Assembly: GCF_014062315.1 (NCBI RefSeq)
Contig: NZ_JACGLT010000007.1
Coordinates: 1-64,000, forward strand
DNA: 64,000 nt
Direction of reading: 5' to 3'
DNA from: Gelidibacter maritimus
Lineage (GTDB): Bacteria > Bacteroidota > Bacteroidia > Flavobacteriales > Flavobacteriaceae
Shown: positions 14,750 to 25,311 of the stretch, piece by piece
How the letters are laid out: every line of letters starts with the position of its first letter
Position numbering within the stretch: the first letter of the stretch is position 1
Program-made: the position numbers and the translations under genes
The notes under the pieces: generated by a model
What the model was told of the DNA's origin: nothing
Seen by the model: the letters and a program-made list of their open reading frames with translations, nothing else
Databases searched by the model: none

Positions 14750-15115
14750 ATGTTAGCTGAAAATGATTATGCAACCTATGAGATAATTGATGGAATAGTA
14801 CATGTCATATACAAGAACATTGACCTGGACATTTCAAGATCGGTCCGTATAGTAAAAGATCGACTTCAGTTACAGGCAGGGCGATTTATGCCCGTACTTT
14901 GTGACATTAGGGCCATACAGGGAATAAATAAAGCAGCACGTGCCTATTTATCCTTAGAAGGATCCGCTTTTGTTAATGCCGTTGCCTTTGTTATTGATTC
15001 TCCAGTTTCAGAAATGTTATCCGACATATATGTAACAACCAATGCGCCTACCATACCTACAAAATCGTTTTTGAACCATAAAGAGGCTATTAAATTTTTG
15101 AATAGGTTCAGGTAA
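14750..15115 (+). CDS. Small STAS/SpoIIAA-like protein (DUF7793-like)
   Basis: This 121-residue soluble protein has no signal peptide. Its pattern of alternating short strands and helices (YATYEIIDGIVHVIYKNIDL, FMPVLCDIRAIQGINKAARA, AVAFVIDSPVSEMLSDIYV) suits a STAS-like alpha/beta fold of the kind seen in small Bacteroidota proteins encoded beside AraC regulators. It is 21 nt upstream of the AraC gene on the same strand, so probably one operon. It may be a sensor or anti-regulator partner, but there is no direct evidence. The family number is from memory and not certain. Confidence 0.5.
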   Translation: MLAENDYATYEIIDGIVHVIYKNIDLDISRSVRIVKDRLQLQAGRFMPVLCDIRAIQGINKAARAYLSLEGSAFVNAVAFVIDSPVSEMLSDIYVTTNAPTIPTKSFLNHKEAIKFLNRFR

Positions 15116-15136
15116 ATTTTTTAAAAGCTCGCTACC

Positions 15137-16111
15137 ATGGAAGAACATATAGAACAAAGACTATCTTCACTTAGAGTGATGCTATTAAAAATGTTATCAG
15201 GAAGTTATTACCAAAGAATCAAACGCTCAGAACATAATGACATTCTTGAGTCTTTTATCCTTGGTTTTAATGTTTTGGCAGAAGAGTTTCAAGACGTTTT
15301 GATCCATCAGGGTTATGTCAATCGGAATGCTGCCATTTTGGATGTTGTTCAAATGAGTTTCATCATTGATGAACATGGAATGGTTGAGATGGTTAATAAG
15401 CTAGCTTGTAAAACCCTGTCGCGCCGTAAAAGGAATATCATTGACCGACCTTTTGAAGCACTTTTAACGGAGGGTTCTGTCAAAAAATGGAAAAATGTTT
15501 TTCAGCAGTGCGCAAAGAGGCGCGCCTATGATACCTCCGTCGACTTGGTATTCAAATCCAAAGGCGGCCTTGAGATACCTAAAACTGTATATGTCTCAAG
15601 ATATTATAAAAATGCACAAGGCTATCGCACACTTATCACCGTCATTCACCATACCAATTATCAAAAGAAACTTCAATCTGGGATTTCTGGTAAGATCAAT
15701 AAAGTAAAGCTTAAAGGAAACAAGAGGTCTTTAAAAGACAGGACCGCTTTACTGAAAAAGTCAAAAGTACGATTGAGTTTGGAGGATATTCAAAAAATCA
15801 AAAGAGCCCACGACATGATTCTTGCCAATCTAGAGGATGACTTTCCATCGCTTAAAGAATTTGCACTACAACTTGGAACCAACGAATTTAAGCTCAAGTA
15901 TGGTTTCAAGGAGTTATACGGCACTACGGTCCATAAGTTTTTGATTGAGGAGCGTCTGAGAAAGGCATTGATGATGGTGCTCTACAGCGACCGCCTCTTT
16001 AAAAGTATTGCCGAAATGACCGGTTTCAAAAGTTTGCCTCATTTTTCAAGAGCGTTCAAAAACGCCTATGGACATTCGCCAAGCGAGATGCGCAAAATGA
16101 ATAATGTATAG
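15137..16111 (+). CDS. AraC-family regulator with PAS-like sensor domain
   Basis: This is a 324-residue cytoplasmic transcription factor. Residues 70-180 resemble a PAS domain (SFIIDEHGMVEMVNKLACKT, FEALLTEGSVKKWKNVFQ). The last 100 residues are a typical AraC double HTH: LKEFALQLGTNEFKLKYGFK with LYGTTVHKFLIEERLRKA, then SIAEMTGFKSLPHFSRAFK and HSPSEMRKM. It follows the STAS-like gene by 21 nt and precedes the MauE-like gene by 101 nt. Likely targets are the divergent synthase and this module, using the repeats at 14597-14693. PAS sensing of a small lipid product is a reasonable but untested guess. Confidence 0.82.
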   Translation: MEEHIEQRLSSLRVMLLKMLSGSYYQRIKRSEHNDILESFILGFNVLAEEFQDVLIHQGYVNRNAAILDVVQMSFIIDEHGMVEMVNKLACKTLSRRKRNIIDRPFEALLTEGSVKKWKNVFQQCAKRRAYDTSVDLVFKSKGGLEIPKTVYVSRYYKNAQGYRTLITVIHHTNYQKKLQSGISGKINKVKLKGNKRSLKDRTALLKKSKVRLSLEDIQKIKRAHDMILANLEDDFPSLKEFALQLGTNEFKLKYGFKELYGTTVHKFLIEERLRKALMMVLYSDRLFKSIAEMTGFKSLPHFSRAFKNAYGHSPSEMRKMNNV

Positions 16112-16212
16112 GATTTTATTAATTACTTCAATTTTTTAATCCCTTTTCTACAAAAATTACTCCCTTATAATCAAATAGATGTCCCGAACTTTACCATATC
16201 AAATCAAATGAT

Positions 16213-16650
16213 ATGAGAGTTCCAGAATCCTTTACTAAAAAAATACCGTGGATGGTCAGTTTACTGTTCGTTCTGTTGTTTGTATATGCAGCGGTGAGTA
16301 AACTTTTGGATTTTAAAACGTTTCAAATACAATTGGGACAGGCTACATTGTTGAGGCCAGTGGCAGGTTGGTTGTCTTGGGTGGTAGTTGTGACAGAACT
16401 GCTTATTGCCAGTTTATTATGTTTTGTAAAAACCCGCCTTTTGGGGCTCTATATGTCACTTTTCCTCATGATATTGTTCACAGTTTATATCGTTATCATA
16501 TTAAATTCTGCAGCCAATACTCCTTGTTCATGTGGTGGGGTGTTGCAAGCGTTAGGGTGGAAGGATCATTTAATTTTTAATAGTTTCTTTTTTTTGATCG
16601 CACTAATCGGAATTCTAATTCAAAGGAAGCAGAAATATAATCTCAATTAA
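16213..16650 (+). CDS. MauE/DoxX-type redox-associated membrane protein
   Basis: This 145-residue inner-membrane protein has four hydrophobic segments: WMVSLLFVLLFVYAAVSKLL, WLSWVVVVTELLIASLLCF, LYMSLFLMILFTVYIVIIL and HLIFNSFFFLIALIGILI. The KLLDFKTFQIQLGQ opening is typical of MauE-like proteins. A CxC pair (TPCSCGG) sits in the loop before the last helix, the position where the family is thought to support disulfide chemistry of exported proteins. The next gene encodes a small secreted protein with two cysteines, a plausible client. Seen: helices and CxC. Inferred: redox role. Confidence 0.75.
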   Translation: MRVPESFTKKIPWMVSLLFVLLFVYAAVSKLLDFKTFQIQLGQATLLRPVAGWLSWVVVVTELLIASLLCFVKTRLLGLYMSLFLMILFTVYIVIILNSAANTPCSCGGVLQALGWKDHLIFNSFFFLIALIGILIQRKQKYNLN

Positions 16651-16727
16651 AATATTACTACGTAGTGACAGGGGAAGATCGAAAACCTGTAAAACAGAGT
16701 AGATCATAATTTATTAATATAAGTATT

Positions 16728-16973
16728 ATGAAAACTAAAGTTTTTAAATTTATTTTACCGCTCTTGGTTATAGTCATGGCCGTGAGCTTCGCTTTTGCTA
16801 CAAATTCCACTTCTGATAATCAAATTGCACACTACTTTGACCCATTGTTTGGTTGGCAGTCCGTGGTAATCGGAGATGAATGTGGACCGGTAGGGGAGAA
16901 TGCATGTGAGTTTATGGGTAAACAGTTGTATTCACAACCAACTACCGAAAGTATTGCATTGCGTAAAGATTGA
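16728..16973 (+). CDS. Small secreted two-cysteine protein (DUF6520-like)
   Basis: This 81-residue precursor has a clear signal peptide (MKTKVFKFILPLLVIVMAVS, cleavage near FAFA) and a mature part of about 55 residues containing only two cysteines, within DECGPVGENACEFMGKQLY. This shape, with the cysteines in a Gly/Pro context and a short polar tail, is that of DUF6520 peptides found beside MauE-like genes in Bacteroidota. It lies 77 nt after the MauE-like gene and is followed by a strong terminator, so it closes the operon. A perfect palindrome ACTACGTAGT (16657-16666) lies in its leader. Function unknown. Confidence 0.7.
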   Translation: MKTKVFKFILPLLVIVMAVSFAFATNSTSDNQIAHYFDPLFGWQSVVIGDECGPVGENACEFMGKQLYSQPTTESIALRKD

Positions 16974-17092: not shown

Positions 17093-19393
17093 TTATAATA
17101 ATGTATTAAGTTTTTTTAAGCAAAACTCCCAATGACCAACTGTAGGTGCATCTTTGTTATTATTAAGCCAGCCCACTATCTCCGCTTTTAAAATTAGTAA
17201 TTGCTCCATAATATGACCTTTTATATAATCAGGATAATCAAAATATTTTGATTCAGCATCAAAAGTCATTCGTTTTTTTTCTAACACCATGACTAACATA
17301 TCAATATAAGTCTTTTGTATTTCTTGTTTCCGTCGATTCTTAGCTACGACATTACCACTTAGTTCTTTGAAAAGTCCTGTTTGAAGTTTGGTTAAATAAT
17401 CTCGAACAGAACCTTTATGATCGGATAATGTTTCCAGATAATTCAATCGTTTAAATCTTGCGGCATCGAGCATATCTATAAGCAATTGTTGTTGATAGGA
17501 GACAACATAATCTGGATAAGTTGAATACATTGTTCTTACTTCAAATTCCGGTTCTGTTAACCAATGTGGTGGATCGAATACATTCTCTAATAGAAAATCA
17601 AGTGCTTCTTCTTGAATCTTCCAATTAATTGGGGTGTAAAGCTTACCTGGTTGATTGATGGACTTATAGTGGATGTCATAGCCTCCAATAAGAGTCAATA
17701 CGTGTTTCATATGATTCCACCACAATTTAAGAGTCTTTTTATATAGACGTTCCAATCTGGCATTATCTTTTTGATCACTGCACACAATTGGCAATAGCGC
17801 AATAACTCGTTTGATGTTCTTGAGTGCCATATTAGTGCTTCGCACTGGATCTTTTGTTTCAACGACCTCATTAGATGCCGCTGGACCGATAATTTCAAAC
17901 AAAGTATTGTTATAACGGTACCATGGTATTGAATCCTGTAATCTAACCATTCCTTCCAATGTTTCTTCTTTTTCATTTTCAGATATGCTCTTTGAGAACT
18001 CGGTGTAGGCCCATTCAATATTGTAAATATCCGCGGGTCCCACTTTTTTAATCAGTAATGATGGTGAAATGCTATCCTCGGGTTGGACGATGTTATTATA
18101 TCGTGTATAGTTCATGACACTTGGAGTATAGCCCATAGTATCAAGCCATTTTACATCATTCATTTTTTCAAAAGGATAGCTATATTCTCCAAAATTACCA
18201 TCCATTATTCCTACCGCATGCCCTGCTTCGTGTGCAGTTAATTCTTGGATCAAAGAGCCTAAAAGATCATCTGGAAAAGGAAACTTTTGCGACCTTTTGT
18301 CCATAGGACCAACCCTGATGAAATAATTGTCGGTCAGGGATTTTAGGGAAGAACCCAAATGAATATCAGCTTTTAAAATCTCGCCAGACCTGTGATCGAT
18401 AATTTTAGAAATGGTGCTACCTCGTGAATCTTCAAAACCTCTTAAATATCTTTTTTGTCCCCAATGTACAACAGAATTACTGATACTATGCAACGCCCAA
18501 TTATCTAAGCTTTCAACTTCCTTTACGACAATCGCATTGTTAAATCCTGCTGCTTTGAATGCCGGCAACCACTCCTCTATTCCAGCTTTAATATATGGGC
18601 GCCATTTTTTTGGAATCTCAGGTGACATTAGGAAAGTAATTGGCTTAATCGGGACGCTAATTAATTGGTCTTTATTTTTTTTTTGAAGTCTCCATCTGGT
18701 TATATTAGCTATTCTGTTGTTGGTATCAAAGTTTTTCACTGTGGCTAATTCAGTAAAAAAGCCCATTCGATAATCATACCGCCTAGACTCCATAGGTTTT
18801 GGTAAGGCACAAAAACCAAAGAATACAGGAATAGAAACCTTAGATTGGTTAAGAATTATTCCCCGTTGGGTTTTTATAATCACTTCATTCTCCAAACCTT
18901 TAACATCCATAAGCATGGAGATCTGTGGCACAATGCTTTCTGTAAAATCAGAAGTCCATTCAATGACTTGATTAAGAACAAGATTGGTGATGTTGACCGT
19001 ATAGATGTCTTTATAGTTCTTCTGAGGCTCCACAGGAAAGATAGATAGAATATTTTCACTCAGGGCAAGATTCGGTTTTAAAGGCAAAATATTTCCAGCA
19101 GATGAATGTATTGGTGGGACTTTTAATAGAATTTTATCTTTATGCAAGGACCACTCCACTTGCATGAATTTTCGTTCCATACTTTGATCATACCTTACAA
19201 ACAACATGGGCGTATCCAGTAATTGGTGTGGTATGTTCAGAAATAGGTCCCCATTCTTCATTAAGGTGGTCAAAAATGGTTGTTTCGCGGCTTGTTCTGA
19301 AGTTGATGACGGATCGATAATTGTCTGGATATTACCAAATGATAACTTTATGTTAAGTCCTATCAATAAACAGATTAATGCAATATTTTTCAT
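17093..19393 (-). CDS. Secreted zinc-dependent metalloprotease (met-zincin, DUF5117/DUF4953-like)
   Basis: This protease of about 766 residues is exported to the periplasm or surface. The start at 19393 was preferred over 19423 because it gives a compact signal peptide (MKNIALICLLIGLNIKLSFG) and begins 17 nt after the SusD stop. The active site is HEAGHAVGIMDGNFG around residue 385, followed by the Met-turn SVMNYTRYN, in the same order as Bacteroidota enzymes usually reading HEVGHTLGLPHN...SIMDYARFN. The third zinc ligand is therefore Asp instead of His, a change known in snapalysin-type enzymes. It is the last gene of a SusC-SusD operon, so it probably processes the peptide that this transporter handles. 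Confidence 0.85.
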   Translation of the reverse strand: MKNIALICLLIGLNIKLSFGNIQTIIDPSSTSEQAAKQPFLTTLMKNGDLFLNIPHQLLDTPMLFVRYDQSMERKFMQVEWSLHKDKILLKVPPIHSSAGNILPLKPNLALSENILSIFPVEPQKNYKDIYTVNITNLVLNQVIEWTSDFTESIVPQISMLMDVKGLENEVIIKTQRGIILNQSKVSIPVFFGFCALPKPMESRRYDYRMGFFTELATVKNFDTNNRIANITRWRLQKKNKDQLISVPIKPITFLMSPEIPKKWRPYIKAGIEEWLPAFKAAGFNNAIVVKEVESLDNWALHSISNSVVHWGQKRYLRGFEDSRGSTISKIIDHRSGEILKADIHLGSSLKSLTDNYFIRVGPMDKRSQKFPFPDDLLGSLIQELTAHEAGHAVGIMDGNFGEYSYPFEKMNDVKWLDTMGYTPSVMNYTRYNNIVQPEDSISPSLLIKKVGPADIYNIEWAYTEFSKSISENEKEETLEGMVRLQDSIPWYRYNNTLFEIIGPAASNEVVETKDPVRSTNMALKNIKRVIALLPIVCSDQKDNARLERLYKKTLKLWWNHMKHVLTLIGGYDIHYKSINQPGKLYTPINWKIQEEALDFLLENVFDPPHWLTEPEFEVRTMYSTYPDYVVSYQQQLLIDMLDAARFKRLNYLETLSDHKGSVRDYLTKLQTGLFKELSGNVVAKNRRKQEIQKTYIDMLVMVLEKKRMTFDAESKYFDYPDYIKGHIMEQLLILKAEIVGWLNNNKDAPTVGHWEFCLKKLNTLL

Positions 19394-19409
19394 AATATGT
19401 TTTATTACG

Positions 19410-20837
19410 TTAATAACCGTCATTTTGGGGTTGTAAATTCCGATTTAGTTCCAATTCAGCTTCTGGAATAGGAAGGTGCACATCGGTTGTTTGCCAATAA
19501 GGTTTTAAGTCTTTTAAAGTTTCATGGGTACGACCGGTACGTTTAAGATCAAGCCAGCGCTGGCCGTGCTCCGCAAATAGTTCCACGCGTCGTTCATGTA
19601 AAATAGCATCCAAGAGGTCATTAACCGTATTGGCAGGAGTAGGGGGTAGGCCTGCTCTGTTTCTTATTGTATTTAAGTCCTGTTGTGCGGCAGCTTTATT
19701 TGCCAAATTGGCCATTGCCTCTGCCCGAATGAGATACTGTTCCGCCAATCTAAAGATTATAGAATATTCCAATGATTCCAATTCACCAAAATTCGCTTTA
19801 TACTTATTGGCGTAATATAATGTTATGTTGTTTTCTGCATCAGAAATACTATCCACCCATTTAGCATATCTTAAGTCCCCAGCCTCAAAATCATCCAATA
19901 ATGAATTGGAAAGAGCATATTTTTGACCGGGAATATTTCGTATGATCAATTGGTTAGCTTCTTGGGTATTTCGTGGGTGTTCGCCTGGTTTAAGCTGCCA
20001 AATGGTTTCTGAAGATTTTTTAAGAAAGACATCGTTCACATCTTCTTCCAAACTGTATTTGTCGATTAGTACAGTAGCGGTTGATGCTGCCAATTCCCAT
20101 TGTTCATTATAGAGATACATTCTTGCTAATAATGCCATGGCGGCATGATAACCCGGCCAGACCCGTTCTCCATCGATAGCATTAATATCTTTGAGAAAAT
20201 AGGTAGCATTAACAAGATCGGTAATTATCTGCGAATTTACTTCAGATATAGACATGCGGGACATCTTGTTATTTTCCAAATAATCGGTGGAGGTTATGTA
20301 AGGGATATCACCAAAGATATTAGTCAATAGATAATGGATATAAGCGCGTACGAACAATGACTGTCCCAGAAATATTTGTTTGTCAGAAGAGGACAAAGTT
20401 TCTGAGTTTTCTAAACCTTCAATGATGTCGTTTGCACTATAGACAAGGTTGTAGGCGTGATTCCACCATCCTAATATTTTGGTGTTATTAGTCATGACAT
20501 TGTTGTGATATAAGTTCTGGTACTCAGTATCAGAACCGAAATAATCAAGCTCATCACTGTATGTCCCCATAGTGGTGGTCAGTCCAAAATCGCCAGAAAC
20601 CATACCCTTTTCCCTCATTTTATAGTAAATATTTGCTAAAGCTGATTCAACTGTCGATTTGTCTTTGAAAACAATATCTGATGTCAATAAATTCTTTGGA
20701 GCGTCAACTATAACGAATTCGGAACAACCTAACGAGAACATTACGAAAAAGAACAATGTCCATCGATTAAGGATGTTGCACATGTTCATGGAGAGCTTTT
20801 TATTGAATTTTATGTCTCTGTTGTGTTTTATTTTCAT
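19410..20837 (-). CDS. RagB/SusD-family surface lipoprotein
   Basis: This is the substrate-binding lid that pairs with the SusC-type channel encoded upstream. The 475 residues include a lipoprotein signal: from an internal Met at 20789 the sequence is MNMCNILNRWTLFFFVMFSLGC, so the true start may be there. SusD-typical blocks follow: SSDKQIFLGQSLFVRAYIHY in the TPR-like helices, RLAEQYLIRAEAMANL, and the C-terminal RRVELFAEHGQRWLDLKRTG. Shorter than most glycan SusD proteins (about 550), as is common for peptide-type systems. It is 17 nt downstream of the SusC gene and 16 nt upstream of the metalloprotease. Confidence 0.92.
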   Translation of the reverse strand: MKIKHNRDIKFNKKLSMNMCNILNRWTLFFFVMFSLGCSEFVIVDAPKNLLTSDIVFKDKSTVESALANIYYKMREKGMVSGDFGLTTTMGTYSDELDYFGSDTEYQNLYHNNVMTNNTKILGWWNHAYNLVYSANDIIEGLENSETLSSSDKQIFLGQSLFVRAYIHYLLTNIFGDIPYITSTDYLENNKMSRMSISEVNSQIITDLVNATYFLKDINAIDGERVWPGYHAAMALLARMYLYNEQWELAASTATVLIDKYSLEEDVNDVFLKKSSETIWQLKPGEHPRNTQEANQLIIRNIPGQKYALSNSLLDDFEAGDLRYAKWVDSISDAENNITLYYANKYKANFGELESLEYSIIFRLAEQYLIRAEAMANLANKAAAQQDLNTIRNRAGLPPTPANTVNDLLDAILHERRVELFAEHGQRWLDLKRTGRTHETLKDLKPYWQTTDVHLPIPEAELELNRNLQPQNDGY

Positions 20838-20854: not shown

Positions 20855-23800
20855 TTAAAAGGCTATTTTCATACCCAAGGTGAATTGTCTTAAAGGAGGT
20901 AAGCGGCTGTAACTGGGATACTCTGGGTCGGGACCTTTATAATTTGTGAAAGTCAGTAAATTTTGTCCCTGGAGGTAAACATTAATGTCCAAGTTATTGC
21001 TTATTTGAGGTACTTTATAATTTAAGGAAATGTTCCTAAGTCTTATAAAAGAGGCATCCGAAACGGCTGCGCTACTATCTTGTTGTAATGAACCAGTATC
21101 CACACCCATTCCGAAGCCACCAGATGATTTTTGGATAGCTTTAATATCTCCATTCTGTTGCCATCTGTCGAATAAGTCTACAGGTGCATTTCTTCTGTAT
21201 CCAGGGATTGTAGAAAACCGCATCAGGTTGAATGCCTGCTGTTTTTTAAACTGGAAGAAAACGTTAAGTGTCAGATTGCCGTAACTGAGGGTATTACCAA
21301 AGCCTCCATAGAATTCAGGAGCTAAGTCTTTTGCCCATTGTCTGTCTGCTAAACTGCTAATATTCCCATCCCCATTATAATCTTTAAATTGATATATCCC
21401 AGTTTCAGGGTTTACACCCAAGGCATGATACAATTTTACAATTGTAAGAGGTTGTCCGATGACATAACGGTTGGCGAAAGTTGAATTTTCTAGATCGTCG
21501 AATTTTACCAACTTATTTTCGGGTAACGTGATATTGAAGGAGGTTGACCATTTTAAATAATTAGTTTTTAAATTGACGGTCTGTATATCCATTTCAAAAC
21601 CTGTATTCTCTACGGTTGCATCAAAGTTTCCTGTAAGTTGTGAAAAACCGGTGGTTGCTGCTAATGGTATGCCAATGAGTTGGTTGGAGGATTTGTTGCG
21701 ATACCATGAAGTGGTGAGGTTGATTCTGTCTTTTAATAAAGCCAGTTCTATGGCAGTTTCTAATTTTTTATTGGATTCCCAGCCGAAAATCGGATTGAAT
21801 ATCCCTGTGGGCTGCAGCGCGGTTGTGCCATCATAATCATAACCGGTAATGTTGTAAGTGTTCAAAAACTTATAGTCACCAATGTTATCACTACCTGTGA
21901 TACCATAACTCGCTCGAAACTTTCCAAAGCTTAAAATAGTATTGTTTTTAAATATGTCTTCTTCGGAAAATACCCAAGCTATACCCACGGCTCCGAAATT
22001 CCCAAATTGTCTGCCTGGTCCAAACCGAGAGGAGCCATCCCTCCGTCCGGTGAGATTTAAAATGTATCTTTCATCAAGATTTAAGTTTATTCGTCCAAAA
22101 ACGGCTGTGTAACTATATTCGCCATCCATATCTCGTTGAACTTTCACAATCTCTGCGGCGGCTAGATTACGCAATAGGCTGTTATTGGGGTAACCGGTTC
22201 CTTTTTGGACCAATTGTTTGTTCGTTTCCTTTTGAAATGTTGTTCCAAACAGAATGTCCAGCTTAATTTTTTTCCATTGGTGTTTCCATTGAAGCTGAGG
22301 TTCCACAATCCAGGATTGTCTTTGGGAAGCGTTTGTAGTAAGGTTTGAGTAATTTTGGGGAATGAATCCCAAAGCTGGATTTGTTGCCGAACTTGGTAAA
22401 GTTTTGAAAGAATCTAACCTGTAGCTGTTAAACCCCAGACTAGATTTAAACTCTAAGTTGGGCATTAGCTTATATGAAATATAAGTATTTGCGTTAAGGG
22501 AGTTTATATTTGCTCTGTACTCTTCAAGTAAAGAAGCCAAAGGATTGTCCCATGAATTGTTTTCCCAATTCAACTCACCAACTTCATTATAAAGTTTAGG
22601 AGCATTGGGTTCGAGAGTGTAAGCTGAATAAGAAAAGTCTTCTTGAGGTAACGAATTTTTTTCATGGGTATATATAGTTGAAAGATTAATCGTGAATTTA
22701 CCTCCTTGTGAATGATGGTTGATATTGTTGTGGACTGAGGTTTTTTTATAATTCGATTTTCCAGGGAATACTGTGCTTTCATTTTGATGAGCTGCACTAA
22801 TCAAATACCTTGTCTGTGGATTTCCTCCTGAAAGTCTTAACTGTGCATTTCTTCGATGTGCATTACCTCCGATTAATTCTTTTTGCCAATCCGTATAACG
22901 ATTTTGATCCCAGGTCTTTAGATCGGGCCAAGCAAAATCGAATGATGGATTGTCAAGATATGCTTCAAATCCATCGTTTATGATACCTTCTCTGCGTACT
23001 TCCAAATATTGTTCAGTATTCATTAATTCAACAAAATTGGATACTTGTCCCAAAGAATTGCTGAAATCTATTTGTAGTTGTGTTTTTCCTACAATCCCTT
23101 TTTTTGAGGTTATCAAAACCACTCCATTGGCTCCTCTGGATCCATAAATTGCCGTGGCATCTGCGTCCTTTAAAACCTCAATGCTTTCTATGTCATTCGG
23201 GTTAATTGAATTTAGCGGACTTATATTTCCCCTTAGGATAAGTCCTGATACTTCAGTAGCTCCTAATGACTGTGAACTAAAAGGAACCCCATCAACAATA
23301 AAAAGAGGATCGGTCCCACCATTGATAAAATTCTTCCCTCTAATTTGAATATCATAACCACCACCGGGCACGCCTGTATTTTGCACAATATTTACGCCTG
23401 ACATATAGCCTTGCATGGCGCCTAAGGGATTATTAACCGGCTGCAATTCAATCTCCTTAGCCGTAATCCGCGCAATACTTCCCGTTTTCTCACGGTCGGT
23501 AGTGCTGTAATAGCCAGCGTTGATTTGTACTTCTCCTAATGCGGTAGCATCTTCTTGTAAGGTAACATTGATGGTGCTGTGGTTGTTTATGGGGATGGTA
23601 AGCGTTGTATATCCCAAATAGGATATTTGCAGCGTATCAGTTGGTCTGGCTGTAATAGTATAACGCCCATCAAAGTCTGTTACTACACCATTTGTAGTAT
23701 TTTTAATAAGCACATTTGCGCCAGATATGGGTAGCTGCCCATCAGTAACCTGGCCGGAGACCAACAGGTCCTGCGCAGATAGAGTCAGGGAAACACTAAG

Positions 23801-23860
23801 GAAGAAGAGACAGCTGACAAAAATGCGCCGCCTCCTTACTGATTTATAATTTTTTATCAT
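20855..23860 (-). CDS. SusC/RagA-family TonB-dependent outer-membrane transporter
   Basis: This 1001-residue outer-membrane channel is powered by TonB. After a signal peptide (RRIFVSCLFFLSVSLTLSAQ) come a carboxypeptidase-regulatory-like domain (VSGQVTDGQLPISGANVLIK, residues 34-115), a plug domain with the SusC signature DADATAIYGSRGANGVVLIT (about 240-260), and a long beta barrel ending in the export-competent LRQFTLGMKIAF. It starts the SusC-SusD-protease operon. The 5' leader is long, and a predicted small RNA is transcribed opposite to it from a promoter that abuts the start codon. No anti-sigma FecR or ECF sigma gene is adjacent, so regulation may rest on the leader elements. Confidence 0.94.
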   Translation of the reverse strand: MIKNYKSVRRRRIFVSCLFFLSVSLTLSAQDLLVSGQVTDGQLPISGANVLIKNTTNGVVTDFDGRYTITARPTDTLQISYLGYTTLTIPINNHSTINVTLQEDATALGEVQINAGYYSTTDREKTGSIARITAKEIELQPVNNPLGAMQGYMSGVNIVQNTGVPGGGYDIQIRGKNFINGGTDPLFIVDGVPFSSQSLGATEVSGLILRGNISPLNSINPNDIESIEVLKDADATAIYGSRGANGVVLITSKKGIVGKTQLQIDFSNSLGQVSNFVELMNTEQYLEVRREGIINDGFEAYLDNPSFDFAWPDLKTWDQNRYTDWQKELIGGNAHRRNAQLRLSGGNPQTRYLISAAHQNESTVFPGKSNYKKTSVHNNINHHSQGGKFTINLSTIYTHEKNSLPQEDFSYSAYTLEPNAPKLYNEVGELNWENNSWDNPLASLLEEYRANINSLNANTYISYKLMPNLEFKSSLGFNSYRLDSFKTLPSSATNPALGFIPQNYSNLTTNASQRQSWIVEPQLQWKHQWKKIKLDILFGTTFQKETNKQLVQKGTGYPNNSLLRNLAAAEIVKVQRDMDGEYSYTAVFGRINLNLDERYILNLTGRRDGSSRFGPGRQFGNFGAVGIAWVFSEEDIFKNNTILSFGKFRASYGITGSDNIGDYKFLNTYNITGYDYDGTTALQPTGIFNPIFGWESNKKLETAIELALLKDRINLTTSWYRNKSSNQLIGIPLAATTGFSQLTGNFDATVENTGFEMDIQTVNLKTNYLKWSTSFNITLPENKLVKFDDLENSTFANRYVIGQPLTIVKLYHALGVNPETGIYQFKDYNGDGNISSLADRQWAKDLAPEFYGGFGNTLSYGNLTLNVFFQFKKQQAFNLMRFSTIPGYRRNAPVDLFDRWQQNGDIKAIQKSSGGFGMGVDTGSLQQDSSAAVSDASFIRLRNISLNYKVPQISNNLDINVYLQGQNLLTFTNYKGPDPEYPSYSRLPPLRQFTLGMKIAF

Positions 23861-23945
23861 AGTTTTGTAATGGTTAAAGTGATAGATTAATTTTAACTGT
23901 TGGCCTGCTCCGATGTCGTGGTAAACTGGGAGCGGGCTTTTTTTT
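23860..23945 (+). ncRNA. Predicted antisense sRNA opposite the susC leader
   Basis: The plus-strand -7 box TAGTTTTG (23860-23867) begins at the base complementary to the susC ATG. Expected start near 23874. The transcript would end at a strong intrinsic terminator: stem 23903-23911 with 23929-23937 (GCCTGCTCC/GGAGCGGGC), then eight T residues to 23945, giving about 72 nt. No + strand gene is available to use this terminator. Bacteroides PULs are known to carry similar cis-antisense RNAs of this size beside susC (DonS type), where they repress the operon. No -33 TTG was found. Confidence 0.6.
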
Positions 23946-24024
23946 GTGCCGTTTTATGCGTTACGGCTTTGTTATCTGTTTTTTGTTATGTCATAGGCAA
24001 TTGGTGTTATTATTTAGGGAAGCG

Positions 24025-24106
24025 GGGCTGCCGTTTAATGTTAGCAAATCTCCAGTTTGTGGCAGCCCTTTCCCAAAGACTAATTCTAATATTTTGTTAT
24101 GTGGCA
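24025..24106 (-). promoter_or_regulatory. susC leader: 5' hairpin and conserved promoter-like element, copy 1
   Basis: On the minus strand, the conserved block (24106-24061) reads TGCCACATA, a short spacer, then TATTAGAATTAGTCTTT. It is followed immediately by a hairpin whose perfect 8-bp arms are 24061-24068 and 24025-24032 (GGGCTGCC/GGCAGCCC). The block is shared with copy 2 at 24526-24569. It is most simply a dedicated promoter, with the hairpin forming the 5' end of a leader of about 200 nt in front of susC. The sigma factor class is unknown. Confidence 0.5.
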
Positions 24107-24129
24107 TTAGTTGCAATATTTCCGTCTTT

Positions 24130-24366
24130 TCACGATCTATAGTTTTGCAGTGCCGGTATTGATGACCACCCTTTCAGATTTTGGGTATCATCATCTAATA
24201 CAAGGATGGTACGCGCTCTCTGAAGTGGGTTTTCCATGGGTTTATTGTTAAAAAATGCAAGCGCCGTTGTGTGTTTGGCTATTAATGGGGGATAAGAAGT
24301 GACGCGTGTTACAAAAATCAAAAACAATAAAAGGCGCCTGCATTGGGTTATATGTTTTAATGTCAT
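24130..24366 (-). CDS. Small putative secreted protein upstream of susC
   Basis: The 78-codon frame begins MTLKHITQCRRLLLFLIFV, a basic-hydrophobic export-like segment (compare the SusC start, also with RR before the hydrophobic core), and continues to a polar C-terminus containing TILVLDDDTQNLKGWS. No family was recognised, and no cysteine follows the signal-like region. The argument for it being real is its 5' region: a conserved promoter-like block, a hairpin, and an antisense promoter abutting the start codon, in the same arrangement as in front of susC. It might be a peptide handled by the SusCD-protease system, or a truncated gene left by duplication of the leader. Confidence 0.45.
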   Translation of the reverse strand: MTLKHITQCRRLLLFLIFVTRVTSYPPLIAKHTTALAFFNNKPMENPLQRARTILVLDDDTQNLKGWSSIPALQNYRS

Positions 24367-24449
24367 AAATTTGCTAAAGTAATTGTTATATTAGTTAATT
24401 TGACCTCCGGAACGATTGTGCCAACATTTGTAAGGAGGTTTTTTTTTTT
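24366..24449 (+). ncRNA. Predicted antisense sRNA opposite the small secreted ORF
   Basis: The -7 box TAAATTTG (24366-24373) starts at the base complementary to the ATG at 24366, exactly as in the susC copy. The predicted transcript is about 24380-24449, near 70 nt, ending at stem ACCTCC (24403-24408)/GGAGGT (24434-24439) and a run of eleven T. No plus-strand protein gene lies upstream to use the terminator. Prediction only. Confidence 0.5.
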
Positions 24450-24500
24450 GTGACTACAATAAGTGCATAGGCTTCAATTTTTAAAGTTAAATTAGGAAGT

Positions 24501-24569
24501 TGCCGCATATGGTTTTTCGCATAGCGGCAGCTATCCTAAAGACTAATTCTAATAGTTCGCTATGTGGCA
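24501..24569 (-). promoter_or_regulatory. Leader hairpin and conserved promoter-like element, copy 2
   Basis: The block 24526-24569 repeats 24061-24106 with AAAGACTAATTCTAATA identical and the flanks GGCAGC and TATGTGGCA conserved; the two differ by a 2-nt length change. On the minus strand it is followed by a hairpin (TGCCGC 24501-24506 with GCGGCA 24524-24529, extended by TATG/CATA). The arm sequences differ from copy 1 but both keep a GCNGCC-type base, so the structure looks conserved. It would drive the small ORF 24130-24366. Confidence 0.5.
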
Positions 24570-25062
24570 CTGTTGTTTATAGTGCTGCCTTGTTCTTAGG
24601 GGATTTTAGAGCTTGCAATTGGCGATAGCGAGGTGTTTGTTGCAAACTCCTTTTGTATTGTCTCAATAATGATGTGTAACCATAGGCAAATTCCGCAATT
24701 AAATTTTATACTATTTATCATTTACATATGCATAAGCAGAGATCAAATGATTTTTGGTAAGTGGAGTAACGCCCTTGAGGTATGGAAACGAAAAGGCGTG
24801 GAACTCAACTTACTGCATCAGGGGTACTGGTATACCGAGGAACAATAAGAGAGCCCACGCCAGTTGACGTGAGCATCTACTTATCATCTCGTTCCTTTAA
24901 ATTACCAGTTTTCTGATACGAGACTCAAAGCGAATGCTTCAATATTTTATCATGAAGAATCGCAAAATTAAAATATTATTGGCTAATATAATAAATCTTT
25001 TTTAATTGTGGGTTATTTCACCCACATTTTTTATTAAGATTTTGGCCACATTGCAATTGCAT

Positions 25063-25311
25063 ATGGCAAAAAGTAATAATAAAGATAATTTTCAAATTCA
25101 ATTTGGGAAACGAATAAGGGCGCTTCGCAAGGATAAAAACCTTAGTTTAAGGAAACTTTCTCAAAGATGCAATCTTGACTATAGTGATATTGCCAAATAT
25201 GAAAAAGGAGAGGTAAATATTCAATTATCTACTATTTATGAATTGTCTGTGGGTTTACAAGTTGCCCCGAAAGAACTATTTGATTTTGATTTTGTATTTA
25301 ATGATAATTAG
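25063..25311 (+). CDS. XRE-family helix-turn-helix regulator
   Basis: This is an 82-residue DNA-binding protein from the ATG at 25063; the upstream in-frame ATG at 25006 adds an unconserved hydrophobic stretch and was not chosen. Residues 10-70 are a Cro/CI-type HTH: IQFGKRIRALRKDKNLSLRK, LSQRCNLDYSDIAKYEKGE, then IYELSVGLQVAPKELFDFD. There is no sensor domain. Stand-alone small XRE proteins like this often sit at the edge of mobile or defence islands, and the restriction-modification island begins just after it. No partner toxin was identified. Targets unknown. Confidence 0.85.
   Translation: MAKSNNKDNFQIQFGKRIRALRKDKNLSLRKLSQRCNLDYSDIAKYEKGEVNIQLSTIYELSVGLQVAPKELFDFDFVFNDN

Follow-up and report, generated by a model that had tools for sequence, protein, structure and literature searches.

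What is encoded in front of a susC gene when the same series of a sequence block, a hairpin and an opposite-strand terminator occurs there twice? The question is raised by the first 64,000 nucleotides (nt) of contig NZ_JACGLT010000007.1 of Gelidibacter maritimus (assembly GCF_014062315.1; Flavobacteriaceae), hereafter termed the window, in whose positions all coordinates are given unless a locus label (Lnnn) or contig label (C69, C15) is attached. Here, the gene for SusC, identified by family search as a TonB-dependent outer-membrane transporter with CarbopepD_reg and Plug domains (20855–23860, minus strand), is preceded by two such cassettes, each of which had been proposed in a first, sequence-only reading to specify an antisense RNA. 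We consider it quite probable that each cassette represents a susC 5' regulatory region with a short, self-terminating antisense RNA that would lower SusC, that the upstream cassette belongs to a decaying susC, and that a further structured RNA, to which we gave the label SPL-RNA, is situated above both.

Direct reading of the sequence bears out the duplicated order of elements: on the plus strand, each cassette carries a TAnnTTTG box at an ATG and, some 75–85 nt beyond, an intrinsic terminator. The box TAGTTTTG (23860–23867, plus strand; direct reading and leader survey) is locked to the ATG of susC and the box TAAATTTG (24366–24373, plus strand; direct reading) to the ATG of a remnant discussed below, the first box base pairing with the A of the ATG in both cases, as had been noted before. 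Acting as −7 elements, they would give rise to predicted antisense RNA 1 (23874–23946, plus strand; hairpin 23902–23938, T-run 23938–23945), delineated by sequence, leader survey and folding, and predicted antisense RNA 2 (24380–24450, plus strand; hairpin 24402–24439, T-run 24439–24449), delineated by sequence and folding. Hairpin and T-run are thus in place at both of the opposite-strand terminators that had been called at 23945 and 24449. Relative to shuffled sequences, folding of the two units yielded z-scores of −2.26 (23874–23950) and −3.68 (24380–24456), and the two predicted RNAs differ from each other in sequence.

The notion that box and terminator belong together is supported by the leaders of related SusC genes. 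A scan with an alignment of the protease encoded behind SusD gave 79 related loci, which together with L041 and the window made up 81 sources; subtraction of 6 sources without a complete SusC start left a set of 75 starts. The locked box was scored as CAAAnnT immediately 5' of the ATG, which reads as plus-strand TAnnTTTG on the opposite strand. It was found at 34 of the 75 SusC starts versus 1 of 624 other ORFs (non-SusC open reading frames of at least 200 amino acids (aa) from the same loci, any ATG within the first 80 codons being scored; Fisher p = 1e-35). An antisense terminator with its T-run 74–102 nt from the ATG was detected in 27/34 box leaders versus 1/41 boxless ones (Fisher p = 7e-13), such that the check put forward in the sequence-only reading, conservation of the elements and of their spacing among leaders of related SusC genes, was passed by 27 of the 34; the lone boxless leader with a terminator, L068, bears a near-box. 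With the set reduced to one SusC per 80%-identity group (53 SusC), the terminator was present in 25/31 leaders with and 1/22 without the box (p = 2e-8). In control runs, the detector picked up an antisense terminator upstream of 8 of 621 other ORFs, and in the sense direction it reported a terminator in 1 of the 75 SusC leaders. In the 75-row SusC tree, box and terminator are scattered and change together, and all six two-row sister pairs that are unlike in the box are also unlike in the terminator (L080/L093, L054/L120, L081/L060, L094/L101, L095/L092 and L099/L109). The window's own genome, in which 36 SusC matches exceed the family cut-off (30 fetched, 22 parsed), shows the same pattern, with the box at 6 of the 22 parsed SusC starts and the terminator in 5 of the 6 with versus 1 of the 16 without it. 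The predicted promoter box and terminator evolve as one module, and there is good support for predicting, ahead of susC, a DonS-like cis-antisense RNA about 70 nt long; predicted lengths in the 27 leaders are 65–93 nt with a median of 72 nt. Between the window and Gelidibacter gilvus, the susC leader from −100 to 0 is 94.1% identical, compared with 85.7% for codons 1–42 and 73.7% for codons 43–400.

Several observations weigh against this interpretation. A TTG at −33 lies within the expected range in 3 of the 27 leaders with box and terminator, so that the call of an antisense promoter depends on the −7 box. In 7 of the 34 box leaders, no terminator was detected by the script, which was our own. 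The box caller gave preference to a box-bearing ATG among several candidate ATGs, and the box count is favoured thereby, although the 624-ORF control was likewise scored at any ATG. The box could also be, in part, a translation-start habit of SusC genes. Taken to its full extent, the latter explanation holds that the locked box is nothing but a habit of SusC genes in their translation starts or base composition, that the plus-strand hairpin is unrelated, and that no antisense RNA is made. Translation starts in Bacteroidota are A-rich, and both the scarcity of the −33 element and the AT-richness of the leaders would fit such a habit. Yet the box stands at a single one of the 624 non-SusC ORFs and is missing from 41 of the 75 SusC starts, and the antisense terminator tracks the box while being rare before other ORFs and in the sense direction, which renders this explanation unlikely.

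A self-terminating antisense RNA at a susC start recalls the DonS-type RNAs of Bacteroides, the original work on which is reportedly that of Cao et al. in 2016. Like DonS, the present units would be short RNAs opposite a susC start with an expected repressor function, here with promoter and terminator predicted: each is encoded divergently, antisense to the start of a susC homologue, and an intrinsic terminator accompanies the large majority of box leaders. According to two reports, DonS-type RNAs measure 78–128 nt and lower the expression of susC homologues (PMC7366714), and B. thetaiotaomicron has 32 antisense RNAs associated with polysaccharide utilization loci, with examples of inverse as well as positive correlation (PMC10994844). 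The units described here differ from DonS in belonging to Flavobacteriaceae and to a locus with a Met-zincin protease and MauE and DUF6520 neighbours, and in their somewhat lower predicted length range (65–93 nt versus the 78–128 nt given in PMC7366714); their −7 box overlaps the start codon, and they are set beside DonS by description. The glycan-utilization setting of DonS is not found either, as no glycan enzyme is among the nine locus proteins scanned (SusC, SusD, Met-zincin, MauE, DUF6520, AraC, DUF7793, the helix-turn-helix (HTH) protein and the remnant, which has no family), for which reason we term the units DonS-like rather than members of that group. The FopS small RNAs (sRNAs) of B. 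thetaiotaomicron, compared by description as well, are likewise short terminated RNAs at the susC translation start, and 4 of 14 are antisense by position; however, they are described as acting on several mRNAs by way of a common 5' seed and as binding RbpB, whereas the present cassettes, if active, would act on their own leader (PMC11697453).

On the strand opposite susC, a sigma-A type promoter with its −7 box over the start codon would fire away from the gene, and its transcript, about 70 nt long, would stop at an intrinsic terminator of its own within the susC 5' leader. Its complement in the susC mRNA leader would extend from about −14 to −85 relative to the ATG, and as reported for DonS, the RNA would most likely reduce expression of susC and the genes downstream of it through leader pairing and/or head-on interference with susC transcription. 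Since flavobacterial mRNAs are devoid of Shine-Dalgarno sequences, as stated in a Flavobacterium psychrophilum transcriptome study (PMC9723704), pairing at the leader may impede the entry of ribosomes or trigger decay of the mRNA. The same study lists 287 transcribed regions that lie antisense to 281 genes, and offers them as a starting point for such work.

To which gene, then, does the upstream cassette belong? It had been suggested to drive a 78-codon secreted ORF (24130–24366), an open frame that exists, yet constitutes a truncated susC 5' end and not a gene of its own. Homology, DNA alignment and codon differences identify 24113–24366 (minus strand) as the 5' end of a duplicated susC that has decayed. 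At the same place, G. gilvus has a 169-aa frame that matches the SusC N-terminal domain, with E values in two-sequence comparisons of 5e-18 against the SusC of that genome and 1e-15 against that of the window. In comparison with this frame, the window ORF has lost its middle part and is shifted in frame, and its protein no longer matches SusC (E = 6.5); at the DNA level, the whole remnant aligns to susC with a score of 31.5 (maximum of 28.5 in 200 shuffles) and its 3' part with a score of 21 (maximum of 18.5 in 500 shuffles). Differences between window and G. gilvus at codon positions 1/2/3 amount to 8/7/9 in remnant codons 1–42, compared with 5/4/9 (codons 1–42) and 3/6/26 (codons 43–100) in intact susC, a test that is weak by itself in the signal-peptide stretch because intact codons 1–42 already give 5/4/9. 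Judged by homology, the second cassette is the leader of a decaying susC copy, a second susC reduced to a 5' fragment.

Remnant and leader might nonetheless have been retained as a decoy, with the sense leader or antisense RNA 2 titrating a shared regulator. In line with this idea, the remnant leader is kept at 81–86% identity between window and G. gilvus while the body has decayed to 39.5% with gaps. However, the first 42 codons of the remnant are equally kept (81.0%), so that shared ancestry suffices; moreover, the remnant occurs in just two of the genomes searched, those of the window and G. gilvus, and the two antisense RNAs are unlike in sequence. We regard a decoy function as rather improbable and adhere to the leader of a decaying susC copy.

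The conserved block and the sense-strand GC-rich hairpins described in the sequence-only reading were recovered as well. The block GACTAATTCTAATA is found at 24078–24091 and 24541–24554, within a 39-nt repeat whose copies before susC (24068–24106, minus strand) and before the remnant (24531–24569, minus strand) share 87% identity in the repeat comparison. It is a local element: these two are its sole exact copies genome-wide, and of two copies with one mismatch in the genome, one lies in another susC leader (C69:178584) and one inside a susC gene (C15:19959). Loose matches are not enriched, neither in the genome at up to 2 mismatches (53 places versus 96 for the reversed control pattern) nor in the window at up to 3 mismatches (11 versus 13.4 expected). 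With this lack of excess, and with exact GAATTAGTC in 5 of 75 leaders, a role of the block as a general SusC element was rejected. The hairpins 5' of susC (24017–24074, minus strand) and 5' of the remnant (24492–24539, minus strand) both fold better than shuffles (z = −3.18 for 24010–24075 and −4.09 for 24490–24545), and hairpins resembling the former were seen by eye in Gelidibacter leaders. An Rfam scan of the region returned a single sub-threshold match, COG2908 at 24498–24532. Two further sequence features may be recorded here. A third TAGTTTTG-like stretch, ATAGTTTTGCAGTG, lies at the remnant end (24139–24152) and is 86% like the susC box region. A TGCCTATG box occurs near the antisense terminator, about 100–140 nt 5' of the ATG (e.g., 23991–24000 of the window, minus strand); within 700 nt, it was seen in 16 of the 34 box leaders at a median distance of 134 nt 5' of the ATG.

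Above both cassettes is the SPL-RNA (24787–24940, minus strand), a covarying structured RNA of about 155 nt with a T-rich 3' end and possibly two states, defined by alignment, covariation, folding and a covariance model. It was reached through k-mers, which placed the most widely shared leader DNA about 400–650 nt before susC; in the window the distance is 926 nt, owing to the remnant in between. An operator/promoter-like inverted repeat, TTGCGA...GAAGC..TCGC, marks its 5' edge (24931–24965, minus strand) and reads TTGCGA..GAAGC..(T/C)GC across loci, with both halves in 51 of 54 SPL loci. The 54-locus counts omit L059, L062, L085 and L096 as well as L047, L052, L083, L091 and L122, five loci with the SPL-RNA about 2 kb upstream, in which the SusC N-terminus was seen to be extended. 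In L191, the same place as L052, ECF (extracytoplasmic function) sigma-like and FecR-like genes were noticed by eye between SPL-RNA and SusC.

In alignment A2, for which 38 of 49 sequences were kept after a 95% redundancy filter, the outer stem P1 is variable yet paired (mean of 7.5 bp versus 3.86 with partners swapped; standard deviation (SD) 0.20, maximum of 4.39 in 500 shuffles), and stem P3 reaches 7.58 bp versus 5.18 (maximum 5.82). One internal strand is complementary to an upstream and a downstream copy of one sequence. If this strand pairs with the downstream one, the resulting helix crosses P1 and P3 and terminates in the T-run, at least four T being present near the model end in 44 of the 54 loci. 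This terminator-side helix contains covarying pairs (columns 94/154, p = 4.7e-5, and 106/140, p = 2.6e-4, not corrected for kinship), whereas the upstream-copy helix is well paired and nearly invariant, its sole variable pair (columns 60/106) showing no association (p = 1.0). The SPL-RNA possibly switches between two competing folds; a single pseudoknotted fold is possible too. Cells with G-U outnumber those with A-C in the terminator-side helix (105/3), P5 (22/0), P1 (11/4) and P4 (15/6), which favours transcription from the susC strand. As in transcription attenuators and riboswitch-type leaders, two places can pair with one and the same strand, and the second pairing ends in a T-run; unlike riboswitch-type leaders, the SPL-RNA has no assigned ligand or known family, and Rfam gave no match over it in the window or in six relatives. 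It may equally well be an sRNA of its own with a terminator or a leader co-transcribed with the controlled gene, and in either form, together with the adjoining divergent HTH gene, would probably control susC. In sum, the covarying fold looks like a new leader-RNA class.

Across 82 sources, the covariance model gave 63 matches, of which that in L096 is weak, and in the window's genome 3, every one before SusC; SPL-RNAs were found in 47 of 249 Flavobacteriaceae and 44 of 395 Bacteroidota genomes, with the window's genome in both counts. Where neighbours were read, the SPL-RNA mostly precedes SusC, ECF sigma–FecR or sigmaE–dCas12f genes. SusC lies within 1.5 kb downstream in 22 of 32 fetched places, and the other ten comprise two in which an ECF-type sigma gene and next to it a FecR-like one were seen by eye (L191, one of these two, continues to SusC), four with sigma plus dCas12f, and four with neither (L165, L168, L173, L177). 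On the other side, a divergent ORF close upstream was present in 62 of 64 places (the 54 SPL–SusC loci and the ten others), at least 46 of the 62 matching HTH_3; in the window, family search and neighbour survey identify it as an XRE/Cro-type HTH regulator (25006–25311, plus strand).

Between SPL-RNA and susC, 49 of the 54 SPL–SusC leaders, the window's not among them, harbour a small ORF of about 37–49 aa (61 in L114), in L120 roughly 54–174 nt past the SPL-RNA end (3880). Its C-terminus, FDILFKKKPKNP(I/V)-stop, is a shared motif that closes the frame in 48 loci. The final 14 codons and the stop occur in 46 distinct DNA versions, in which minority letters number 44/25/248 at codon positions 1/2/3; this concentration at position 3, a strong constraint at the codon level, shows the ORF to be coding, though no Pfam or NCBIfam match was obtained for it. 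With a fixed C-terminus and a free N-terminus, the small peptide would resemble arrest leader peptides. No description of the SPL-RNA or the small peptide turned up in literature searches, none of which targeted the one or the other by name and whose coverage left out most subscription journals. We tentatively entertain, as a possibility that falls somewhat short of an even chance, that the SPL-RNA is a new switch-type leader-RNA class of Bacteroidota, accompanied by a divergent HTH repressor and situated ahead of SusCD operons as well as of their regulators (ECF sigma–FecR, sigmaE–dCas12f); that in one Flavobacteriaceae branch a leader peptide of about 37–49 aa (..FDILFKKKPKNP[IV]-stop) before susC may act by ribosome arrest; and that the separate, interchangeable antisense RNA provides a second layer of RNA-based control at the start codon of susC. 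That the second competing helix has almost no covariation of its own slightly lowers the chances of a switch-type leader.

The proximity of dCas12f genes raises the question of whether the SPL-RNA might instead be the guide RNA of a dCas12f–sigmaE RNA-guided transcription system acting on susC. A sigma factor and dCas12f lie directly downstream of it in several genomes (L187:2424–4309, L188:5936–7818, L189:2460–4351 and L190:7144–9040; also L198 and L202). The L187 pair matches the PDB entries 9n9c (dCas12f homologue, E = 3e-195) and 9n9q (RpoE, E = 2e-102), which we take to represent the sigmaE–dCas12f RNA-guided transcription system. Matches between the SPL-RNA and its own susC leader also exceed those with swapped partners, albeit weakly (opposite strand: 5.1 versus 3.6, SD 0.65; same strand: 4.3 versus 3.5, SD 0.56). 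The dCas12f search covered 40 of the 88 SPL-bearing genomes of the combined Flavobacteriaceae and Bacteroidota scans; of the 12 full-length dCas12f genes detected, 10 are no more than about 1.2 kb away from an SPL-RNA match, which is not an unbiased rate because the genomes were chosen for carrying an SPL-RNA. However, 29 of the 40 genomes, the window's own among them, gave no dCas12f match, and what follows the SPL-RNA in 44 of 54 loci is a T-run and not a free guide. A guide function, rejected on this distribution, is thus very improbable.

Very improbable, too, is the original proposal that SusC and a small secreted peptide, the product of the 78-codon ORF, are coordinated through the duplicated cassette: the ORF's signal-like hydrophobic start, the related open frame in G. 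gilvus behind a similarly kept cassette and the vanished protein match to SusC would suit a peptide gene, but the SusC N-terminal domain in the G. gilvus frame, the residual alignment of the shortened and frameshifted window copy to susC DNA, the codon positions, the lack of any Pfam or NCBIfam match and the occurrence of a related ORF in one (G. gilvus) of 58 other genomes led us to reject it, and with an ORF derived from susC, joint antisense control of SusC and a peptide is not supported.

Beyond its leader, the susC operon continues on the minus strand with SusD (19410–20837) and, directly behind it, a DUF5117/DUF4953 Met-zincin protease (17093–19423), and is convergent with DUF7793, AraC, MauE and DUF6520 genes at 14750–16973, all assigned by family search. 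MauE- and DUF6520-like frames were spotted by eye in L041, L042, L043 and L044 too. A second operon of this kind, with the same kind of leader, is present on C69 of the same genome, and further ones were found in relatives, two in G. gilvus and one each in a probable G. japonicus and a probable uncultured Algibacter. In the latter (L043:12487–15498), Cas1/Cas2-like frames and a repeat array were seen by eye beside the HTH gene upstream of SusC.

The predicted antisense units would extend the theme of SusC antisense RNAs from Bacteroides glycan loci to a transporter–protease system of Flavobacteriaceae, and the comparative test of box and terminator can be repeated without RNA data. If the SPL-RNA is a switch, it would constitute a widespread control point for nutrient transporters and RNA-guided sigma factors, and what turns SusC systems on would become directly testable.

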